Positions 13,761 through 41,177 of a DNA stretch of 56,841 nucleotides are shown piece by piece. The notes under the pieces are model-generated. The model did no database searches. It was not told the DNA's origin and saw only the letters and a list, made by a program, of their open reading frames with translations. The DNA comes from Pseudomonadota bacterium. Its GTDB lineage: Bacteria; Pseudomonadota; Alphaproteobacteria; Rhizobiales; Beijerinckiaceae. Location of the stretch: NCBI GenBank assembly GCA_021813805.1, contig JAKAJL010000022.1, forward strand, positions 1 to 56,841. The letters are read 5' to 3'. Position numbers and translations under genes: made by a program. The stretch's first letter is position 1. Every line of letters begins with the position of its first letter.

Positions 13761-14600
13761 TCAGACGGCGGCTCCTCTCGCGGGCGCCGTCTCGCCAGGC
13801 CCGCGACGGGTGAGAATCACGCGATTTTCGCCGTGTGGCTTGAACTCGCCTGAATAGCCGATGACGCTTTCGGCGGCGCCGAGCACCAGATAGCCGCCCG
13901 GCGCGAGGGCGCGCGTCAGGCGAGCCAGCACGTCGCGCTTCTGCTCAGGCGCGAAATAGATCAGCACGTTGCGGCAGAAGATCACGTCGAACACGCCGAG
14001 GTGGGAAAAATCGCTCATCAGATTCTGCTGACGAAAATCGACGCGCGCCTTGATGTTCTGATTGATCGCCCATTGGTCCTTGCGCTTGGTGAAATAGCGC
14101 ACGAGATGCGACATGGGCACCCCGCGCTGCGCCTCGAAATGGCTGTAGACACCCTCGCGCGCTCGTTTCAGGACGGATTCGGCGATGTCGGTGGCGACGA
14201 TGTCCACGCTCCAGCCGACCAGCCGACGCGCCTCCTCGTCGAGGATCATCGCCAAGGAATAAGGCTCCTGGCCCGTTGAACAGGCGGCTGACCACAGGCG
14301 GATGCGGCGCCTTTGCGCGCGGATCTCGAGAAGCTCGGGCAGGATCGCCTTGCGGAAGCCCTCGAACGGCGCGCGGTCGCGAAAGAAGAAGGTCTCGTTG
14401 ACGGTCATAGCCTCCGTCACCTTCTTCGCCAGCGTGGGATCCGTTTCAAGCCGCGCGACCAGTTCGGGCAGGTTGTTCAGACCGGCCTGCGCGATCACCG
14501 GATTGAGCCGCGCCTCGACAAGATATTGCTTCTCGCGGTCGAGCGAGAGGCCCGAGGATTTCAGCAGAAAATTCTGCAGGGCGGCGAAAGCCTGGGACAT
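13761..14600 (-). CDS. cheR: Chemotaxis protein methyltransferase CheR
   Basis: CheR transfers methyl groups from S-adenosylmethionine to glutamates of chemoreceptors. The 279-residue protein has the helical N-terminal domain, the receptor-binding/AdoMet region VTEAMTVNETFFFRDRAPFE, the AdoMet motif LWSAACSTGQEPYSLAMIL and the VFDVIFCRNVLIYF block. All expected parts are intact. It is the last of the cheA-cheW-cheY-cheR run; its opponent cheB is coded separately at 18938. Confidence 0.97.
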   Translation of the reverse strand: MSQAFAALQNFLLKSSGLSLDREKQYLVEARLNPVIAQAGLNNLPELVARLETDPTLAKKVTEAMTVNETFFFRDRAPFEGFRKAILPELLEIRAQRRRIRLWSAACSTGQEPYSLAMILDEEARRLVGWSVDIVATDIAESVLKRAREGVYSHFEAQRGVPMSHLVRYFTKRKDQWAINQNIKARVDFRQQNLMSDFSHLGVFDVIFCRNVLIYFAPEQKRDVLARLTRALAPGGYLVLGAAESVIGYSGEFKPHGENRVILTRRGPGETAPARGAAV

Positions 14601-14642: not shown

Positions 14643-15008
14643 TCAGCAGAGTCCCACTTCCTCGAATTTCGATTTCACGATCTGCTTGTTGAAGGGCTTC
14701 ATGATATATTCGTCGGCCCCGGCCTGCATGGCGCGAGTGATATGTTTCACGTCGCTCTCCGTCGTGCAGAACAGCACTTTCGGCGCCGCGCCATTGGGCA
14801 TCTGGCGCAGGTTGACGAGGAACTCCAGCCCGTCCATCACCGGCATGTTCCAATCGAGCAGGATGGCGTCCGGCATCGCGCTGGCGACGGCGGCGAGCGC
14901 CTTCTGCCCGTCCTCGGCCTCCGAGGCCTTGAAATTCAGCTCTTCGAGGATTTTCTTGGCGATGCGCCGGATCATCGGCGAATCGTCGACAACGAGCACG
15001 TTCTTCAT
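14643..15008 (-). CDS. cheY: Chemotaxis response regulator CheY
   Basis: CheY carries the phosphoryl signal from CheA to the flagellar switch. The 121-residue protein is one receiver domain with the acidic pair D8-D9 (LVVDDSPMIRR), the phosphoacceptor D52 (LLDWNMPVMDG), T82/T83 and the conserved K104 (YIMKPFN). It stands alone, without an output domain. It lies between cheW and cheR, with about 40 bases on each side. The window has one free-standing CheY; alphaproteobacteria often have a second copy elsewhere acting as a phosphate sink. Confidence 0.96.
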   Translation of the reverse strand: MKNVLVVDDSPMIRRIAKKILEELNFKASEAEDGQKALAAVASAMPDAILLDWNMPVMDGLEFLVNLRQMPNGAAPKVLFCTTESDVKHITRAMQAGADEYIMKPFNKQIVKSKFEEVGLC

Positions 15009-15048: not shown

Positions 15049-15534
15049 TCAGCGGTCCTCGGTGAAGTCGAAGACCGCGTCGATATTGAGCAGGGGCATG
15101 AGTGTTCCCGCGACGCGATGATAGGCGGCGGCGAATTTCGCCCGGCCGCGCGCGATATGCGGCGGCGGCGCGACGGTCGTGTCGGGGGCGAGACTCAGGA
15201 CGTCGCCGATCTCGTCCACCAGCAGCGCGAAGGCCTCGCCGGCGTGCTCGATCCCGATCGCCAAGCTCCCCGGGCCGTCACCTTCGGCCTTCAGGCCGAG
15301 CCGCCGGCGCAAGCTCACCGCCGTGACGATCTTGCCGCGCAGGTTGACGAGACCGACGATGTCGCGCGGCCCGCCCGGCGCGCGGGTGACCGGGCCGATG
15401 CGGAAAATGGTCTGAACCCGGGTCACCGGCAGGCCGAAAACGTCGTCGGCGACCTTGATCGAGAAATAGCCGTCGAGCGCATTGGCCGCGGCGCGGGGCG
15501 CCTCGCTCGACATGCGGGAAGGCTCGAAGCTCAT
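15049..15534 (-). CDS. cheW: Chemotaxis coupling protein CheW
   Basis: CheW couples chemoreceptors to CheA. The 161-residue protein has a single CheW domain beginning near residue 22 (DGYFSIKVADDVFGLPVTRV), with the RDIVGLVNLRGKIVTAVSLR block and the C-terminal ALLVDEIGDVLSL stretch. The ATG at 15534 overlaps the cheA stop (ATGA), which argues for coupled translation and fixed stoichiometry. Confidence 0.95.
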   Translation of the reverse strand: MSFEPSRMSSEAPRAAANALDGYFSIKVADDVFGLPVTRVQTIFRIGPVTRAPGGPRDIVGLVNLRGKIVTAVSLRRRLGLKAEGDGPGSLAIGIEHAGEAFALLVDEIGDVLSLAPDTTVAPPPHIARGRAKFAAAYHRVAGTLMPLLNIDAVFDFTEDR

Positions 15535-18143
15535 GCGGCGACTCCCGAGGCAAAGGCGGCGCCGTCCCGGAAGCCGTCGTCGGCGACGCAGGCGCGGATG
15601 AGGTCCAACAACTGGTTGCGCTGGAATTTCCCAACCGCCGCCGCCATCCCGGCGGCTTGCGCCGCGCGGACGACCTCGCGGCTGGCGAAAGGCGCGAGGG
15701 CGATCATCGGCGCGCGCGCCCCGGCCTCGCGCAGGCGTCTTGCGAGTTCGAAACCGGCGCCGTCGGGCAGATCGACATCGACGAGAATCGCGTCGAAGCG
15801 CGGGTTATGGCCGACTCGCGAGACGGCCTGCGCGCCAGTCTCCGCCTTGACGACCTCGAATCCTGCGGCGGAAAGCGTGGCCGAAAGCATATCGCGGAAG
15901 AAGGCTGCGTCGTCCACCAGCAGCAGGCGGCTCTTGCGCGGGGCGCCGCTCTCGCCGGAGCCCCGCAGCATGTCGATGAAATAGGCAATGTCGAGCAGTT
16001 CGACGACCTTGTCGCCGATACGGGCGGCGCCGACGATTCCTGGCGCGCCGCCGGCGATTTCCACGTCGAGCTTCTCGTCCACGATATCGAGGATGCGGTC
16101 CACGAGCAGGCCGAAGGGCTCGCCGTCGGGCGAGACGACAAAGACGGTGTTGCCGCCCTCCTTCACCATCGCATCCGGCGCGGCGGCGACGATCGGCATC
16201 AGGCGCCCCTGATGCTGGATCAGCATCATGCCGTTGGAATGTTCGATCTTTTCCGACGACACGGTTTCGATCCGCGCGACGTTCGAGAGCGGCAGCACCT
16301 TGTCCACACCGGAGCCGGCGCGGAAATAGATCAGCCGCGTCTTGTCGGCGCCGTCGCGCGCGCGCTCCGCCTCGCTGGCCGCCGTTTCGCGCGCCGGCGT
16401 AAGCCCCAGGGCCTCGCGCAGCCCGTTGGGATCGAGAATCAGCACCACCGAACCGTCGCCGAGAATGGTATGGCCGGAGAAGGCCGCAAGATGCTGCAGC
16501 GAGCCGCCCATCGGCTTGACCACGATTTCCTGCACGTCGGTGACGGCGTCGACAGTGATGCCGAAGGACTGGGCGCCGACGCGCATGATCACGGCGAGCT
16601 GCTCTGGTTCGGCGGCGCGCGCTTCGGGCGGCGCGAGATGGAGAAGTTCGGCGAGGCTGCCGATTGGCAGGACCGCCTCGCGCAATTGAAGGATTTTCGC
16701 GCCCTGAACGAATTCGATACGATGTTCTCCGCCCGTGACGCCGACCGCCTCGACCACCGAATGCTGCGGCAGGGCGAAGCGCTGGCCATGGGCTTCGACG
16801 ATCAGCGCCGGCGCGATGGCGAGGGTCAGCGGGATCTTGAGCGCGAAACGAGTCCCCCGCCCCGGCGTCGAGGACAAGGCGACCGAACCGCCGATCGCCT
16901 GGATGTTCTCGCGCACCACATCCATGCCAACGCCGCGCCCCGAAACATTGGTGACCTTTTCGGCGGTCGAGAAGCCCGGCGCGAAGATGAAGCGGTAGAT
17001 TTCCTCGTCGGTCATCCGTTCGAACTGCTGTTCGGACGCCAGCCCGAGCTTCAGGGCCTTGTCCTTGATCCGCGCCTTGTCGAGGCCGCGCCCGTCGTCG
17101 CTGATCTCGATGGTGATCTGGCCGGCCTCGTGCGAAGCCGCGACCCGCACAGTCCCCGCCGCCGGCTTGCCAAGTCGGACGCGCTCGTCGGGCGGCTCCA
17201 GCCCATGATCGGCGCAATTGCGCACGAGATGGGTGAGCGGATCGCGGATGAGCTCGATCAGCTGGCGATCGAGTTCGGCGCCGCCGCCATCGGTCACCAG
17301 ATTGATCTTCTTGTTCAGATCGGTCGCGAGATCGCGGATCATGCGCGGCAGATTGGCGAACACGCGCTCCACCGGCTGCATGCGCGCGCGCATCACCGCG
17401 TCCTGCAGATCGGAGGTCATGGCCGACAGGCGCTGCAGCGGCGACTTGAGCGCCTCGTCGCTCCTGTGGCGCGTGATCTCCATGAGCTGGTTGCGGGTCA
17501 GCACCAGCTCCGACACGAGCTGCATGATTCGCTCGAGCGTTTTGATATTGATGCGGATCGTCTCGGCGCGCTTGCCCTGCGCCGGCTCGGCGCCGCGCGC
17601 GGCCGCGAGCGCCCCCATGGGCGCCGCGCCCGCTCCGGATTGCGGGGCGGCGGGCGCAGCCGCCGGCGCAGGCTCCGGTTCAAGCTCCATGTCGGCTTCG
17701 GGCGCGCATTCGCTCGTGGACGCGCGTTCGCGGACGCCGGCCAGCGGCGCCTCCTCCTGCGCGCGCCGGCATTCGGCGACCCGCGCTTCGAGCAGCGCGA
17801 CCATGTCGTCGTCGTCGCCCTCGCCTTCGACGCCTTTTTCCTCCAGTTCGGCGAGCAGCGCCTTGACGCCGTCCACCGCGTCGAGAATGGCGGAAACGAC
17901 TTCCGGCGTCGCCTCGGCCCCTTCGCGCAGCGCCCCGATCAGATTTTCCGCGGCGTGGGTCAGCCGCTGGAGCCGGGCAAGCCCAAGAAAGCCGCAGGTG
18001 CCCTTGATCGTATGGACGAGCCGAAAGATGCTGGCGATGAGGCCCGCATCCCCCGGATCCCTCTCGAAGGCCACGATCTGCGCCGACGCCGCCTCGATCT
18101 GCTCGGCCGATTCGGCGAGGAATTCCTTTAGCATTTCATCCAT
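15531..18143 (-). CDS. cheA: Hybrid chemotaxis histidine kinase CheA with C-terminal receiver
   Basis: CheA autophosphorylates in response to receptors and passes phosphate to CheY and CheB. The 870-residue protein has an N-terminal Hpt domain with H44 (FRLVHTIKGTCGFLG), an Ala/Pro/Glu-rich linker of about 80 residues at 115-195 in place of a recognisable P2 domain, a dimerization helix (ERIMQLVSELVLTRNQLMEI), the ATPase domain (NCADHGLEPPDERV; ISDDGRGLD; SGRGVGMDVVRENI), a CheW-like domain at about 450-590, a second CheW-like segment at about 615-745, and a C-terminal receiver. The receiver keeps the VDD pocket and the VDVDLP acceptor, but the usual Thr/Ser position reads ALAPF. It overlaps cheW and the unknown gene upstream. 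Confidence 0.96.
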   Translation of the reverse strand: MDEMLKEFLAESAEQIEAASAQIVAFERDPGDAGLIASIFRLVHTIKGTCGFLGLARLQRLTHAAENLIGALREGAEATPEVVSAILDAVDGVKALLAELEEKGVEGEGDDDDMVALLEARVAECRRAQEEAPLAGVRERASTSECAPEADMELEPEPAPAAAPAAPQSGAGAAPMGALAAARGAEPAQGKRAETIRINIKTLERIMQLVSELVLTRNQLMEITRHRSDEALKSPLQRLSAMTSDLQDAVMRARMQPVERVFANLPRMIRDLATDLNKKINLVTDGGGAELDRQLIELIRDPLTHLVRNCADHGLEPPDERVRLGKPAAGTVRVAASHEAGQITIEISDDGRGLDKARIKDKALKLGLASEQQFERMTDEEIYRFIFAPGFSTAEKVTNVSGRGVGMDVVRENIQAIGGSVALSSTPGRGTRFALKIPLTLAIAPALIVEAHGQRFALPQHSVVEAVGVTGGEHRIEFVQGAKILQLREAVLPIGSLAELLHLAPPEARAAEPEQLAVIMRVGAQSFGITVDAVTDVQEIVVKPMGGSLQHLAAFSGHTILGDGSVVLILDPNGLREALGLTPARETAASEAERARDGADKTRLIYFRAGSGVDKVLPLSNVARIETVSSEKIEHSNGMMLIQHQGRLMPIVAAAPDAMVKEGGNTVFVVSPDGEPFGLLVDRILDIVDEKLDVEIAGGAPGIVGAARIGDKVVELLDIAYFIDMLRGSGESGAPRKSRLLLVDDAAFFRDMLSATLSAAGFEVVKAETGAQAVSRVGHNPRFDAILVDVDLPDGAGFELARRLREAGARAPMIALAPFASREVVRAAQAAGMAAAVGKFQRNQLLDLIRACVADDGFRDGAAFASGVAA

Positions 18144-18937: not shown

Positions 18938-19972
18938 ATGCTGACCCGAAAGCCCGCGACATCCGTCATTCGCGTTCTCGTCGTCGACGATTCGAGCTTC
19001 ATGCGCGGCGCGATCACGCGCCACATCCAGCGCGACGCACGCTTTCTGGTCGTCGGCGCCGCGGCCAATGGCCGCGAGGCCGTCGCCAAGACGAAGGAGT
19101 TGCGCCCCGACGTCGTCACCATGGATGTCGAAATGCCGGAGATGAACGGCATCGAGGCCTTGCGCCAGATTCTCGCGCAGACCTCGACCCCTGTCGTCAT
19201 GCTGAGCGCGCAGACCGAGGCCGGCGCCAAGACGACGATCCAGGCGCTGCAATATGGCGCCATGGACTTCATCCCCAAGAAGGCCGGCTTCGAACAGCTG
19301 CATGAAAAACTGGCCGCCGTCGCCGGAGCCGCCCGCGCGCGACTGTCGCCGATCGCGGCGCCGCGCGGCCAGGCCGTCGCGGCGAAGCCGCGCCTCGGGC
19401 CCTTGAGGCCGCGCGTCGTGGTGATCGGCAGCAGCACCGGCGGCCCGAGCGCGCTGAGGCAGGTGCTCGAACGCCTGCCGTCGCCGTTTCCCGCGCCGAT
19501 CGTCGTCGCCCAGCACATGCCGGCGCAGTTCACCTCGGCCATGGCGAAATGGCTGGCCGATCATTGCCCGCTGAAGATCGTCGAGGCCGCCGACGACATG
19601 GCTCTCGCGCCGGGCTGCGTCTATATCGGGCCGGGCGGCATGCAGTTCCGCGTCGTCAACGGCCGCGTGAAAATCTCCGCCGACCAGGGCGAGAGCCTCT
19701 ACAAGCCGAGCGTGGACGTGCTGGCCCTCAGCGTCGCCATATCTTGCGGCGGCAATGCGCTGGCGATCATGCTGACCGGCATGGGCAATGACGGCGCCAA
19801 GGGCTTCCTGAAGCTCAAGGAGGCGGGAGCCTATGTGATCGCGCAGGACCAGGCGTCCTCGGCGGTCTGGGGCATGCCCCGCGCCGTCGCCGAAGCCGGC
19901 GCCGCCGACGAGATTCTCGCCCTTGGCGAAATCGGAAAAAGGGTCGGCGTTCTGCTCGGCCTCGCCACTTGA
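18938..19972 (+). CDS. cheB: Chemotaxis response regulator protein-glutamate methylesterase CheB
   Basis: CheB removes methyl groups from chemoreceptors and is activated by CheA phosphorylation. The 344-residue protein has a receiver domain with phosphoacceptor D63 (TMDVEMPEMNG), a short linker, and the methylesterase domain with the catalytic triad S166 (GSSTGGPSAL), H193 (AQHMPAQF) and D285 (LTGMGNDGAKG). All key residues are present. It is read away from the cheA run and stands alone, 24 bases before a convergent gene. Confidence 0.97.
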   Translation: MLTRKPATSVIRVLVVDDSSFMRGAITRHIQRDARFLVVGAAANGREAVAKTKELRPDVVTMDVEMPEMNGIEALRQILAQTSTPVVMLSAQTEAGAKTTIQALQYGAMDFIPKKAGFEQLHEKLAAVAGAARARLSPIAAPRGQAVAAKPRLGPLRPRVVVIGSSTGGPSALRQVLERLPSPFPAPIVVAQHMPAQFTSAMAKWLADHCPLKIVEAADDMALAPGCVYIGPGGMQFRVVNGRVKISADQGESLYKPSVDVLALSVAISCGGNALAIMLTGMGNDGAKGFLKLKEAGAYVIAQDQASSAVWGMPRAVAEAGAADEILALGEIGKRVGVLLGLAT

Positions 19973-25982: not shown

Positions 25983-27068
25983 ATGAGCGACGCGCCCGAC
26001 CGGGAAAGCCAGACCGAGGAAGCAACCGAAAAGAAAGTCCACGACTCTCTGGAACGCGGCGAGACGCCTTTTTCGCGCGAGGCGTCTCTTTTCGCCAGTC
26101 TTCTGGCCTCCCTGATCTTCTTCTCCTTCTTCCTGCGCGACGGCGTCGCGCGGCTGATCGCCGCCTTGCAGGGCCTGATCGATCACAGCGGACAGTTCCG
26201 TCTCGGCGAGGGGCGCAACGCCGCCCTGCTGCTCGACGCGGCGGCGCGCGCCTCGGGCGCCTTCGCCGCGCCGGCGCTGGTCCTGCTGACGGCGGCCGGC
26301 GTCATCGCCTCTATCGCCCAGAACCCGCCGCGCATGGTCGCGGACCGCATTTCGCCGAAATGGGAGCGGGTCTCGCCGCGCGCCGGCTGGCGGCGGATCT
26401 TCAGCCTGCGCGGCGCGACGGAATTCGGCAAGAGCCTGCTGAAGCTCGTGGTCGTCGGACTCGTCGTCGCCTTCCTTGTCAGGGGTGAAATCGCCGGCGC
26501 CTTCCGCGCGATCTTCTCCGACCCGGCCCGCCTCGCCGACCATCTGCTCGATGTCGCGCGCGGCCTGTTCGCCAGCGTCGCGGCGGCCGCCGGCGCGCTG
26601 GCCGCCGCTGACCTCGTCTGGTCGCGGATTCACTGGCGCCGCGATCTGCGCATGACCCGGCAGGAGGTCAAGGAGGAGCAGAGGCAGCTGCTGGGCGACC
26701 CGATGGTCAAGGCGCGCCTGCGCTCGGTCGCGCTCGACCGCTCGCGCAAGCGCATGATGGCCTCCGTGCCGACCGCGACCGTGGTGGTCGCCAACCCGAC
26801 CCATTACGCCATCGCCATGCGCTATGTGCGCGAGGAGGGCGGCGCGCCGAAAGTCGTGGCCAAGGGCCAGGACCTGATCGCGCTGAAGATTCGCGAAATC
26901 GCCGAGGCCCACGCCATTCCGGTGATTGAGGACAAGGCTCTGGCAAGGTCGATGTACGACCGTGTCGAGATCGACATGATGATCCCGCCGGAATTCTACC
27001 GGGCGATCGCGGAAATCATCCATTTCCTCAATATGCGCGGCGCCGCCCGCCAGAACCCGAGAAGGTGA
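25983..27068 (+). CDS. flhB: Flagellar export switch protein FlhB
   Basis: FlhB is the export-gate protein whose self-cleavage allows the change from rod/hook to filament substrates. The 361-residue protein opens with the typical ESQTEEATEKKVHDSLERG, has four membrane helices, and carries the autocleavage site N271-P272-T-H274 (VVANPTHYAIAMRYV). The cytoplasmic tail is complete. It lies 7 bases after fliG and overlaps the next gene. FliK (1-1084) is its measuring partner. Confidence 0.97.
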   Translation: MSDAPDRESQTEEATEKKVHDSLERGETPFSREASLFASLLASLIFFSFFLRDGVARLIAALQGLIDHSGQFRLGEGRNAALLLDAAARASGAFAAPALVLLTAAGVIASIAQNPPRMVADRISPKWERVSPRAGWRRIFSLRGATEFGKSLLKLVVVGLVVAFLVRGEIAGAFRAIFSDPARLADHLLDVARGLFASVAAAAGALAAADLVWSRIHWRRDLRMTRQEVKEEQRQLLGDPMVKARLRSVALDRSRKRMMASVPTATVVVANPTHYAIAMRYVREEGGAPKVVAKGQDLIALKIREIAEAHAIPVIEDKALARSMYDRVEIDMMIPPEFYRAIAEIIHFLNMRGAARQNPRR

Positions 27069-27508
27069 ACGACATGCCCGCCGCCGCAACCGCCTTCGCC
27101 TGCGAGCGCGTCCTCGCCGAAAACATCGCCGATGTCGCGACCGAATTGCGCATGATCGACGTCGTCGATCTGGTCGGCTTCATTCGCGGCGAAAGCGTCG
27201 CCACCCTCGAGGATCTGATCAATTCGGCCTCGGAGCTCTATTTCAAACATGGCGCGCTGCGCTACGCCTTGACAGCCAATATCGACCTCATGTGGGAGAC
27301 GCCGCCCTCGGTCTCGCTCAATATGGAGTTTTGCTGGAGTGGCGTGACCGCCTTCTTCGCCCTGCGACTCGATTCGACTTGCGCCGGCGTAGATCTTCAG
27401 CACATTCATTTCGACGTCGCGGCGGATGGCGCGCGCCCCGGCGAGCGCCTCGCCGAGGCCATGGCCGCCGCCCGCGTCGCCCCGCCCCGCCCCGGCCCGC
27501 CGCGCTGA
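27065..27508 (+). CDS. Unknown protein after flhB
   Basis: This 147-residue soluble protein starts at a GTG overlapping the flhB stop (GTGA); an ATG at 27074 is also possible. I do not recognise a family. Visible features are an acidic helical N-terminal half (ENIADVATELRMIDVVDLVG; SVATLEDLINSASELYFKHG), a region LRYALTANIDLMWETPPSVS, and a low-complexity Pro/Arg tail. Coupling to flhB and the end-of-operon position suggest a motility role; none is shown. Confidence 0.8.
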   Translation: MNDMPAAATAFACERVLAENIADVATELRMIDVVDLVGFIRGESVATLEDLINSASELYFKHGALRYALTANIDLMWETPPSVSLNMEFCWSGVTAFFALRLDSTCAGVDLQHIHFDVAADGARPGERLAEAMAAARVAPPRPGPPR

Positions 27509-27608: not shown

Positions 27609-29723
27609 TCAGTCGATCCTGGCGCCGAGGCGCAGCCCGCCCCAATGCCTGCCATTGACGACGATGGGCGCGGAAATGTCCTTGATCAGGACGACCCGCC
27701 CGCCGCCGAGATCGCGCGGATAAGTCTGGCTCAGAACCGGACTGGTGTTGCGCGCCGCCATCAGGCCGGTCGTGTCGTCGAAAATCCTGCGGTTGCGCGA
27801 ATTGGCGTTGTTCCAGACCGGATCGTTCCCCTGCGGCGCGGAATATTTCCTGTTGTGGACGGGCAGATAGCCGTTGCGGTCCACCGCCGCCGAAAAGACC
27901 ACCGCCGGATCGAGGTCGAGGATCGGCTCCTGGATCGCCGGCAGATGGCGCTCCAGAAAATCGAGCGCCTGATTGCGATATTGCTGCGGATCGGTTCCGG
28001 GCAGGGGAAGATAATTGCGGTCGAACAGGGCCGTCTCGGCGATTTCGCCGCTGGCCACGGCGCGCTCGAACAATTCGGCGATCATGCCGGCGCGCTCGAC
28101 CGCAATGGCGCGTAAGGACTCCTCCTTGGCGAGAAGGCGCTGCATCAGGGCGCTCAGCGCCGCCTCCGTCTGCGCGGGAATCTTGATGAACTGGATTCGG
28201 TGGCCATGATCGGAAGGCGGCGCGACGCGGGCGCGCAGGGAGCCGAGTCCATTCAACTCCGCCTCGACGATCGATCCCTGTTCGAGCGATTCAGGCAGGC
28301 CGGCGACCAGCGCGCCCCCCGCCGAAATTTCGATGATCTCGCCGCCGAGGCGCCGCCCGTCCACGACGATCTCGAGCGCCACGCGCGCGGGAGATCTCGG
28401 ATGTTTGCGCCGATCGACATCGACGAAATTCTTCACAGCAATGAGCAGGCGGGTGGAAAGCCGATCGAACAGAACGCCGACCTGTCGGGACTGGTTGGAG
28501 ACTTTGCCCGCCGCGGCGTCCGCATCGCCCACAGCGCGGGTGAACACGTTGACGCTGTCGCCGAGCCGCGACGCCCCCTCCGCCGCGGCGTGAGCGCTTT
28601 GTCCGATTTCCTCGACCGCCGAGATCTGCTGGCTCGAACTCTGGGCGACGGCGGAAGCGATCTGGCTGATTTGCCCGATCAGATCGCGCATGTCCTTCAT
28701 CGCGCCGGTCGCGGATTTCATCGCCGATTCGATTTCGGCGATCTGGCCCGAAATCTCCCGGGTCGCCGCATTGGTGCGCTGGGAAAGCTGCTTCACCTCA
28801 TTGGCGACCACCGCGAATCCCCGGCCGTTTTCCCCGGCGCGCGCGGCCTCGATGGTGGCGTTCAGCGCCAGCAAGCTGGTCTGGTTGGAAATGCCGGCGA
28901 TCAGCCCGACGATCTCGCTCACCCGCGCGGCGGAGGCCGAGAGCGCGGCAAAACGGCGCTCCGCCTCGTCCGCGCGCGCGACCGCGTCGCCCACCAGCGC
29001 ATTGGTTTGACTGGCCTGACGCCCGACTTCCTGACTGGACGCCTGCAATTCCTCGACCGCCGCGGCAACCGCCGTCATGGATTGCGACGTCGTCTCCACG
29101 CCATCCTGAACCAGCGCGACCCCGCCGCGCAATTCTGTCAGCAGCTTCTCCAGACCGTTGACGATCGAGCGCAGATCCTCGGATTGGGCGTTCGCGACCT
29201 CGTTCGAGGACTCCAGCTCCGCTTCGACCGCCTCTTTCAGTTCGAGCGCCTCGGCTTCGCGGGCCGTCCGCGTCACGCCGGCGAAAAAGGCGCCGAGATT
29301 GGCGGCCATATCTGTAAAGACCGATATTGTCAGGGCTTCGGCCAATTCCCGCTCCCGGGCGTGGCCGGCGAGGATCACCCGAAGAAAATTCCGGACGAAA
29401 TAGCTGTAGGCGCCAAGATACAGTTCGGGCGAGAGCCTGACCCGCACATGGGTTTCTCCGATGCGCGCCGCCCGATCCCTGATCTCTTCGCCGGGCGGAT
29501 GGGCGAGCAGGAACCGCCAATGTTCGAGATTGGCGTCGCGGACCCGTTTCGCCGTGGCCGGATCGCGCAGCAGCGCCGCCTTCACGGGATCAGCGCCGTG
29601 TTCGGCATAGAAGGCGTCGAAGATTTCCTCGATCCGCGGCGCGACCGCCGCGCTCAGCGCAGCATAGACGCCGGCTCCGCCCATCTCGCGCGCCCGCGCC
29701 CGCTTCAAAGGATTCAATCCCAT
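27609..29723 (-). CDS. Soluble globin-coupled chemoreceptor with PilZ and C-terminal Cache-like domain
   Basis: This is a 704-residue methyl-accepting chemotaxis protein with no membrane helix. Residues 15-150 look like a protoglobin sensor ([35 protein letters not shown]), with H92 as the likely heme ligand. Residues 165-435 are the signalling coiled coil with the receptor tip ([20 protein letters not shown], then [20 protein letters not shown]). Residues 437-515 fit a PilZ domain ([11 protein letters not shown] and EISAGGALV), a cyclic-di-GMP binding fold. Residues 545-704 resemble the C-terminal Cache/PAS-like module of other soluble receptors ([33 protein letters not shown]). The ATG at 29723 follows a GCGGAA; the longer frame upstream looks non-coding. 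Likely input: oxygen or redox plus cyclic-di-GMP. Confidence 0.9.
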
Positions 29724-29837
29724 GTTTCCGCACCATCGGCTGAAGGCGCGAGGCCCTGAATCGGGCGAGCGCCGGTTGATCGAAGAGCCATTGTCGCGGC
29801 GGCGGCTTGCTCGGACCTTGCCCTTTGCCACTCGTCG

Positions 29838-30290
29838 CTATTGCGGCATCTGGTCCTTCGGCATGTACGAGAAGTCCTGCACCAGGACGTCCTTGATCAG
29901 GCCCTTGCCGAGCTTCTCGTTCACCACGGTGCGAATCTGGCTGGTGAGCGCGTTGATGTCATATTTGTCGAGATGGCGAAAATCGACGCTCGGATCGCCG
30001 TAAATCGTGCGGAACGCGTCATCGAGCACGAAGGCCTCGGGATTGACGTTGAGCTTTTCCGCCTGCTTCACGTCGATTCCATAAAGGAACTGGACGATGA
30101 CATAGCCGAGCAGCGCGCCATCGGCGATCACCGGCACGTTGATGACTCGCGACTTGCGATATTGGTAACTGTGTTCGGCGCCCTCTTGATGCGCCGGCGC
30201 CGCATGGGCGAACCGCCATTGCCCCGCCTCGAAGCTCGACAGCGCGGCGATCGCGCTCGCCCACAGGGCCAGAATGAGCAATTTGACCAT
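29838..30290 (-). CDS. Secreted or anchored protein, possibly FliL-like
   Basis: This 150-residue protein has an N-terminal hydrophobic segment (LLILALWASAIAALSSF) and a probable periplasmic domain. The C-terminal part (INALTSQIRTVVNEKLGKGL, then IKDVLVQDFSYMP) resembles the end of FliL-type domains, where a helix is followed by a short strand. The similarity is by eye and weak. It lies 10 bases after flgN and 114 bases before the chemoreceptor. A true fliL is present at 8105, so this would be a second, diverged member. Confidence 0.75.
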   Translation of the reverse strand: MVKLLILALWASAIAALSSFEAGQWRFAHAAPAHQEGAEHSYQYRKSRVINVPVIADGALLGYVIVQFLYGIDVKQAEKLNVNPEAFVLDDAFRTIYGDPSVDFRHLDKYDINALTSQIRTVVNEKLGKGLIKDVLVQDFSYMPKDQMPQ

Positions 30291-40163: not shown

Positions 40164-41177
40164 ATGCGCGTCGTGCTCCTGGCGTCGCTGAACAGATCCG
40201 GAGAAGCGATCGGCGCGCTTCTCGAAGCGCGCGGCCACGAGGTTATTCGTTTCTGCGAGGCGAAGCGCGCGCTGAGACAGCTTGAGGTCGACGGGACCGC
40301 CAGCGCCTTCATCGTGCTCGACTCCGGCAATAGCGAACGAGCGATCGAAACCTGCTGGGACGCGCGCCTGCTCGCGACTTTCGAGCGCCCGATCTATATC
40401 GGGCTGGTGGCGCGGCCAATGCCCTCGCAAGCGATCGTCGAGGCGCTCGACTGCGGCGTCGACGACGTCCTCCAGATGCCCTTGTCCTCCGACGAGCTTT
40501 ACGCGCGCTTGCGTTCGGCTGAGCGGATGAACCAGATGCAGTTGCAACTGGTGCGGATGGCGACACGCGACGCTCTGACCGGCCTGCTCAACCGCTCCGC
40601 ATTTTTCAACGGCGCCGAGAAGATCTGCCGCGCGGCCGACGCGCCCTCCGCCGCAATCATGGCGGACATCGATCATTTCAAGGCGGTCAACGACAGATAT
40701 GGCCATGCCGTCGGCGACAAGGCCCTGAAAGCCGTGGCCGCCTGTCTCGGCGGGCGCGCGGAAATCGTCGCTCGCCTCGGCGGCGAGGAATTCGTCCTCC
40801 TCCTGCCGGCAAGCGGCGCCGAAGAGGGGCGCCGCGTCGCGGAGGGGATTCGCGCCGCGGTCGCCGCGCATGAAATCGACCTGGACGGCGCGCCCCTGCG
40901 GGTGACATGCAGCTTCGGCGTCGCCGTCGCCGAGCCGGGGGCGACGATCGACGAGGTCCTGCGCCGCGCCGACGCCGCGCTCTACGCCGCCAAGCGGGAC
41001 GGTCGCGATCGTGTCGCGGTTTACCGTGCGGAAATGTCCCTTCCCGATTCTCTCCCCGCCAGCGTCATCCGCCGCGCCGGCGACCGAACCGAGGGCCCGC
41101 GGCGTCAAGCCGCCGGCGGACAGTTCTTGCATGCGGCGTTCAACTGGCCTTGCCCGGGCGCAAGCGAATCATTTTGA
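40164..41177 (+). CDS. Diguanylate cyclase with pseudo-receiver domain
   Basis: The GGDEF domain makes cyclic-di-GMP from two GTP. In this 337-residue protein the active-site loop GGEEF is at residues 206-210 (IVARLGGEEFVLLLP), with IMADIDHFKAVNDRYGHAVG before it. The product-inhibition site RxxD is absent; the matching positions read GRAE, so feedback control by that route is unlikely. The first 115 residues have a receiver-like fold, but the acidic pocket is missing (VVLLASLNRSGE) and the Lys position is Met (M105 in DDVLQMPLSS), so phosphorylation is doubtful despite D53. It is divergent from flgE and overlaps the end of a convergent gene by 38 bases. Confidence 0.93.
   Translation: MRVVLLASLNRSGEAIGALLEARGHEVIRFCEAKRALRQLEVDGTASAFIVLDSGNSERAIETCWDARLLATFERPIYIGLVARPMPSQAIVEALDCGVDDVLQMPLSSDELYARLRSAERMNQMQLQLVRMATRDALTGLLNRSAFFNGAEKICRAADAPSAAIMADIDHFKAVNDRYGHAVGDKALKAVAACLGGRAEIVARLGGEEFVLLLPASGAEEGRRVAEGIRAAVAAHEIDLDGAPLRVTCSFGVAVAEPGATIDEVLRRADAALYAAKRDGRDRVAVYRAEMSLPDSLPASVIRRAGDRTEGPRRQAAGGQFLHAAFNWPCPGASESF

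Follow-up and report, generated by a model that had tools for sequence, protein, structure and literature searches.

Soluble methyl-accepting chemotaxis proteins (MCPs) with an N-terminal protoglobin domain and a proximal histidine are exemplified by HemAT of Bacillus subtilis and Atu1027 of Agrobacterium; in the latter, the His100Ala substitution abolishes globin function (PMC10851874; here and below, published systems are described from the accessible portions of the cited texts). We analyzed a receptor of this general kind that is encoded on the minus strand at positions 27609..29723 of a 56,841-nucleotide stretch (hereafter the window) of contig JAKAJL010000022.1 from a Beijerinckiaceae bacterium (assembly GCA_021813805.1). 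The window protein shares with HemAT and Atu1027 its solubility, the N-terminal protoglobin and the proximal His; however, its signalling domain is followed by a PilZ domain and a Cache-fold module, neither of which is described for these two receptors in the accessible texts. We propose that it is a soluble multi-input chemoreceptor feeding the CheA pathway of the same window, and that on balance it probably acts in this species as an integrator of three inputs.

The aerotaxis receptors Aer and Tlp1 of Azospirillum brasilense have, like the window protein, a C-terminal PilZ domain, which tunes aerotaxis (PMC13401364; PMC6406031); however, Aer is membrane-anchored with a PAS domain of the flavin adenine dinucleotide type, and the accessible portions describe no globin or further C-terminal module. 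Agrobacterium Atu0514 (MCP514) is a cytoplasmic protoglobin MCP whose globin is without three conserved residues (PMC10851874), which resembles the loss of globin residues in the His-less relatives of the window protein, but as far as its accessible description goes this 514-amino-acid receptor consists of protoglobin, HAMP, and signalling domains only (PMC8466855). In Magnetospirillum gryphiswaldense, a deleted set of aerotaxis-related MCPs includes two protoglobin receptors, and several members carry extra modules such as PilZ; the PilZ carrier is not named in the accessible text, so a receptor with both globin and PilZ may exist there (PMC12442639). Rhodobacter sphaeroides, an alphaproteobacterium, likewise has soluble receptors, TlpT and TlpC (PMC3964821, PMC6829392). 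In the accessible openly licensed PMC literature, supplements excluded, we found no receptor joining a globin, a PilZ domain, and a C-terminal Cache domain, and the openly licensed PMC literature gave no cytosolic or C-terminal Cache domain in a chemoreceptor. The extracytoplasmic Cache-type sensors YycG/WalK, CitA, DctB, and Tlp3 carry their Cache domains outside the membrane and before the output domain; the module of the window protein is like them in fold, whereas it is cytoplasmic and C-terminal, and no sequence link to them was found.

Domain architecture of the receptor

The receptor gene and its elements are listed below; conservation is given for the 21 proteins found to have the same four-module architecture (globin, coiled coil, PilZ, and Cache-fold module).

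27609..29723, minus strand: whole receptor gene, 704 amino acids, with ATG at 29723 and stop codon at 27611-27609; N terminus conserved in the relative L033
29274..29675, minus strand: protoglobin sensor domain, residues 17-150 (Pfam PF11563, HemAT by phmmer, AlphaFold2, Foldseek)
29448..29450, minus strand: His92, candidate proximal heme ligand, opposite a HemAT His; His in 11/21 four-module proteins
29607..29609, minus strand: Tyr39, candidate distal-pocket residue; Tyr in 12/21 four-module proteins
28419..29246, minus strand: MCP signalling coiled coil, residues 160-435, tip at about 292-300 (Pfam PF00015, matches to MCPs in PDB)
28143..28415, minus strand: PilZ domain, residues 437-527 (Pfam PF07238; fold like c-di-GMP-bound PilZ structures)
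28395..28409, minus strand: RxxxR loop, R439-KHP-R443, at the junction of the C-terminal coil arm and PilZ; kept in 21/21 four-module proteins
28314..28331, minus strand: second PilZ motif, E465-I-S467-A-G-G470, with Glu for Asp/Asn (motif scan, conservation)
28050..28175, minus strand: helix 517-558 linking PilZ to the C-terminal module (AlphaFold2 secondary structure)
27612..28118, minus strand: C-terminal Cache-fold module, residues 536-704, without Pfam or NCBIfam family (AlphaFold2 and fold search)

L033, which is 72% identical to the window protein, is encoded on contig JAJXYV010000264.1 of a metagenome-assembled genome; an upstream in-frame GTG at 29831 would give an alternative product of 740 amino acids. 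Three Pfam families match above their curated cut-offs, namely Protoglobin (residues 22-131, E-value 1.8e-12, 48 bits with a cut-off of 25), MCPsignal (250-399, E-value 4.7e-28), and PilZ (437-527, E-value 5e-7, 30.4 bits with a cut-off of 22.5), and residues 540-704 match no Pfam family above its cut-off. The globin, signalling coiled coil, and PilZ domain of the original prediction, which had been made from the DNA letters and their translations, are thus recovered by domain search, and its Cache domain by fold only. The prediction of a protein without membrane helices also stands, since the highest mean Kyte-Doolittle hydropathy over 19 residues is 1.46.

Residues 12-132 align with B. subtilis HemAT (phmmer, E-value 8.9e-7), and H92 faces a HemAT histidine within a conserved block. 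The AlphaFold2 (AF2) model has a mean predicted local distance difference test score (pLDDT) per block of 10 residues of 89-96 in the globin (21-150) and 84-96 in PilZ (441-530). In Foldseek comparisons, the globin fold predicted around H92 reaches target-normalised template modelling scores (TM-scores) of 0.75-0.78 with the AfGcHK globin and 0.63-0.71 with HemAT. The proposed protoglobin-like N terminus with H92 is therefore confirmed at the level of family, alignment, and predicted fold, and the protein combines the N-terminal protoglobin, MCP signalling domain, and proximal His of HemAT-type receptors. By this modeled fold it may bind heme, with Tyr39 as a candidate residue of the distal pocket.

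The segment 438-515 is predicted to fold as PilZ (target-normalised TM-score of 0.78 with c-di-GMP-bound PA0012, where c-di-GMP is cyclic dimeric guanosine monophosphate), and most Foldseek PilZ matches are to c-di-GMP-bound domains. The PilZ motifs that had been proposed within 438-470 correspond to R439-R443 and E465-G470; the first Arg of the RxxxR loop is also where the AF2 helix 359-439 terminates, with a pLDDT of only 57 in block 431-440. The usual form of the second PilZ motif is [DN]xSxxG, of which the window protein keeps S467 and G470 and has Glu as the first residue. S467, like RxxxR, is present in 21/21 four-module proteins. Judged from these motifs, c-di-GMP binding is likely but, given the Glu at the [DN] position, not certain.

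Modeled alone, the C-terminal 169 amino acids yield a mean pLDDT of 92.6, with a dip to 76-78 at positions 91-110 of this segment, and the predicted structure and fold search assign them a Cache/PDC fold with a long N-terminal helix. H623, W637, R643, D650, Q666, and R698 are identical in 58/58 sequences (21 four-module proteins and 37 relatives with PilZ and Cache matches and no globin match); in a wider set of 64 sequences (A3) the first four are invariant and the latter two nearly so, and one member has a weak sCache_3_2 match (E-value 0.016). With no membrane helix indicated in the window protein, the module lacks the extracytoplasmic location typical of Cache domains. Cache families are principally extracellular, and in the accessible part of their survey only Diacid_rec and YkuI_C are named as principally intracellular (PMC4822843); on that account, a Cache-fold module that is widespread, cytoplasmic, and C-terminal stands out as unusual. 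At an E-value of 1e-20 it occurs in at least 86 of the 398 sampled genomes of the phylum, presumably Pseudomonadota, so that many receptors could be annotated once this module is named and its ligand identified. It is also found in 15 plasmid records; eight of these matches lie in annotated genes, all encoding MCPs, and for seven no gene is listed.

Chemotaxis pathway and proposed mechanism

The window encodes the following chemotaxis proteins.

15531..18143, minus strand: CheA with Hpt, dimerisation, and ATPase domains, two CheW-like stretches, and a C-terminal receiver (Pfam)
15049..15534, minus strand: CheW (Pfam; search of the genome for CheW-like domains)
13761..14600, minus strand: CheR methyltransferase (Pfam)
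14643..15008, minus strand: CheY-like single-domain response regulator (Pfam)
19418..19942, plus strand: CheB methylesterase domain (Pfam match only)

CheW-like domains are found in the genome only in these CheA and CheW proteins, which makes this the single CheA found by that search; the receptor thus has both a signalling domain and a partner kinase in its genome. The genome has three MCPs, and the globin of the window protein has no second match there. The other two contain 4HB-HAMP (4HB, four-helix bundle) and Cache-HAMP domains, and receptors of these types usually span the membrane. The original suggestion that this is the main receptor of the pathway goes beyond these data, by which it is one of three. 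With 13 GGDEF and eight PilZ matches in the genome, c-di-GMP signalling is likely. A GGDEF match lies in the window (40560-41012, plus strand) and is a possible local source of c-di-GMP.

The dimeric hairpin coil of MCPs contacts CheA and CheW at its tip, and both chain ends lie at the same end of the rod, opposite that tip. By analogy, the globin and the PilZ/Cache modules should share one end; the original description of sensors placed after the signalling tip is correct along the sequence but probably not in space, where the hairpin would put them with the globin. The N-terminal globin would there adjoin the C-terminal PilZ and Cache-fold modules. Oxygen or another diatomic gas bound to the His92 heme would shift the N-terminal arm, c-di-GMP bound to the RxxxR loop, which starts where the C-terminal arm ends, may shift that arm, and a small molecule from inside the cell, held in the pocket of the Cache fold, would act through helix 517-558 on PilZ and the C-terminal arm. 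The three shifts would sum to one CheA activity; oxygen would then guide the cell, and its motile or sessile state and a metabolite would adjust the set point. Heme, c-di-GMP, and ligand binding, the geometry of the end complex, and the sign and logic of the output are what we infer here from the domains, predicted folds, motifs, gene context, and conservation. Oxygen, the second messenger of the motile/sessile switch, and internal metabolism are usually studied in separate receptors; here a single soluble polypeptide is predicted to read all three, and its genome has no more than three receptors, so point mutations could be used to dissect their integration.

Distribution and conservation of the four-module architecture

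When the whole protein was searched in the order, class, and phylum samples, two candidates per genome were scored, so the counts are lower bounds; the phylum search with the C-terminal module took in as many as nine. At least nine of the 397 genomes of the order sample, namely the window genome and eight others, have matches across all four modules, and the other strong matches listed mostly start further in, without the globin. Within the genus, 7 of 11 genomes, including that of the window, have a full-length match, and three of them have two. The class sample (385 genomes, presumably of Alphaproteobacteria) adds at least three proteins (L117, L118, and L120) verified by a custom globin profile, and by Pfam as well for L117 and L120; in G951 of this sample the match spans residues 62-702. 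Alternative front ends are a PAS domain with a four-helix bundle (L123) and a sub-threshold HAMP match (L124, which is without a Pfam PilZ match).

Of the 17 other four-module proteins compared, 15 show their highest identity with the window protein in the Cache module, and in the remaining two (L108 and L109) Cache is tied with the coil. Across the family, conservation is strongest in the coil, the RxxxR loop, and the Cache core, whereas no input is inactivated as often as the globin. At the locus of flhB and flhA, L108, L109, L110, and L115 have the same gene order as the window.

Variation of the inputs and alternative interpretations

A number of observations weigh against three working inputs. 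The pLDDT is low for most of the coil and for the junction 431-440, so the placement of the domains is not predicted by AF2. Foldseek overlap of the C-terminal module is modest; its best match has an E-value of 1.9e-4, a query-normalised TM-score of 0.45, and a root-mean-square deviation of 8.6, and PAS domains were matched as well; sequence searches found for it no relative in PDB, no Pfam or NCBIfam family, and, by hhalign with a single-sequence template, no link to the Cache domain of another receptor of the genome. The earlier label of a Cache/PAS-like C terminus thus holds by fold but finds no firm support in sequence. The PilZ domain alone has three weak phmmer matches among PDB sequences, none named as a PilZ chain.

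The proximal His itself is absent from 10 of the 21 four-module proteins (H 11, Q 7, K 1, Y 1, N 1 at position 92), so that three inputs fit the window protein, not the whole family. The original prediction of an uncommon integrator is supported in that three sensor modules are predicted in one soluble protein, but the architecture recurs, often without the heme ligand. On a tree of 18 proteins built with the globin left out, three changes of His state are needed, also when well-supported branches alone are considered, with a long-branch warning for this tree. Both states occur at the same flhB/flhA locus of one genus, with His in the three genomes G000, G482, and G561 (the window protein, L108, and L109 among the proteins) and Gln in G537 and G456 (L110 and L115 among the proteins); two further Gln relatives, L111 and L113, have no flhB/flhA neighbours in the stretch fetched. 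The same-locus orthologues without the heme ligand are ready-made natural controls.

Receptor matches number 3, 4, and 3 in the three His genomes, where this globin has no further match, and 31, 27, 29, and 19 in the four Gln genomes. Thirteen globin matches in the Gln genomes comprise seven four-module proteins and six other globin MCPs, all six with His; heme sensing thus looks to be kept somewhere in each genome. The contrast of His and Gln with repertoire size corresponds to one split on the tree and is suggestive. In addition, receptor repertoires differ about tenfold among the 11 genomes of the genus (2-4 versus 19-31 matches at an E-value of 1e-20); since the four genomes without a relative of the window protein have 2-3 receptor matches, a small repertoire alone does not bring this receptor. 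In another arrangement, found in G504, G422, and G537, a four-module paralogue (L112, L114, and L116) is encoded beside a plain globin MCP, sharing its strand with genes like those of CheA, CheW, CheR, and CheY; position 92 of these paralogues is Tyr in L112, His in L114, and Asn in L116.

A wider interpretation, which we put forward tentatively as possible but doubtful, is that the MCP-PilZ-Cache core constitutes an undescribed receptor class that would read c-di-GMP and, by its cytoplasmic C-terminal Cache domain, a shared intracellular metabolite, and whose N-terminal sensor could be exchanged (a globin, a PAS domain with a four-helix bundle, or no recognised sensor). In genomes with small repertoires, such as the present one, the globin would make it a three-input receptor; where repertoires grew, dedicated globin receptors would have taken over heme sensing, leaving the globin of this receptor to decay to a heme-free coupler.

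It is rather unlikely that the globin is largely structural, serving dimerisation and coupling like the non-heme globin of RsbR, with c-di-GMP and the Cache ligand as the real inputs. Such a role would fit the loss of His in almost half of the four-module proteins, through at least three state changes, and at a shared locus (three genomes with His, two with Gln), as well as the divergence of the Gln group of four, which compared with the window protein has identities of 0.31-0.36 for the globin, 0.63-0.64 for the coil, 0.46-0.54 for PilZ, and 0.73-0.75 for Cache. However, the window protein has both H92 and Y39, its two His orthologues keep globin identities of 0.64 and 0.74, and the distribution of His among the other globin MCPs of the Gln genomes, set beside the lack of a second such globin in the His genomes, looks like retention of heme sensing somewhere in every genome.

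That PilZ has lost c-di-GMP binding and does no more than connect the coil structurally with the Cache module appears more unlikely still. Position 465 is E in the window protein and in 13 of the four-module proteins (D 7, N 1), against D in 33 of the 37 globin-less relatives, of which 31 have RxxxR, 32 S467, and 36 G470. G470 is kept in 17 four-module proteins and replaced by Ser in the other four, which are the Gln92 group (L110, L111, L113, and L115), and L110, the only member of this group scanned with Pfam, has no PilZ match at an E-value of 0.001; by these sequences, PilZ may likewise be losing strength in this group. Both the change to Ser470 and the absence of a match in L110 slightly lower our trust in a three-input integrator and in the proposed core class and raise it in a PilZ connector. 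The invariant RxxxR and S467, the G470 of the window protein, and the largely c-di-GMP-bound Foldseek matches nevertheless favour c-di-GMP binding. As a separate observation, the heme and c-di-GMP inputs may fade together in the Gln92 group.

Least probable, by a hair, is that the C-terminal module uses its Cache fold for localisation or scaffolding rather than ligand sensing, as its tie to receptors on plasmids and its cytoplasmic location, unlike that of most Cache domains (PMC4822843, accessible part), might suggest, but the six residues that 58/58 sequences have in common, which are charged, aromatic, or polar, and the high Cache identity among relatives look like one shared pocket. Two further candidates were rejected: a gene on the plus strand (open reading frames in 27645-29759), as the curated family matches and the relatives lie along the minus-strand frame, this being evidence from the minus strand only; and a one-off fusion or assembly artefact, as 21 proteins have this architecture and five genomes of the genus, counting that of the window, carry it at the same locus.

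Neighbouring genes

FlhB, FlhA, FliM, and the other flagellar names are assignments that we presume from the look of the sequences, and FlgN and Rod-binding have Pfam matches below the cut-off only. The small genes flanking the receptor gene (27065-27508, plus strand, and 29838-30290, minus strand) have no Pfam match at an E-value of 0.001, yet four other genomes of the genus keep both of them at this locus.
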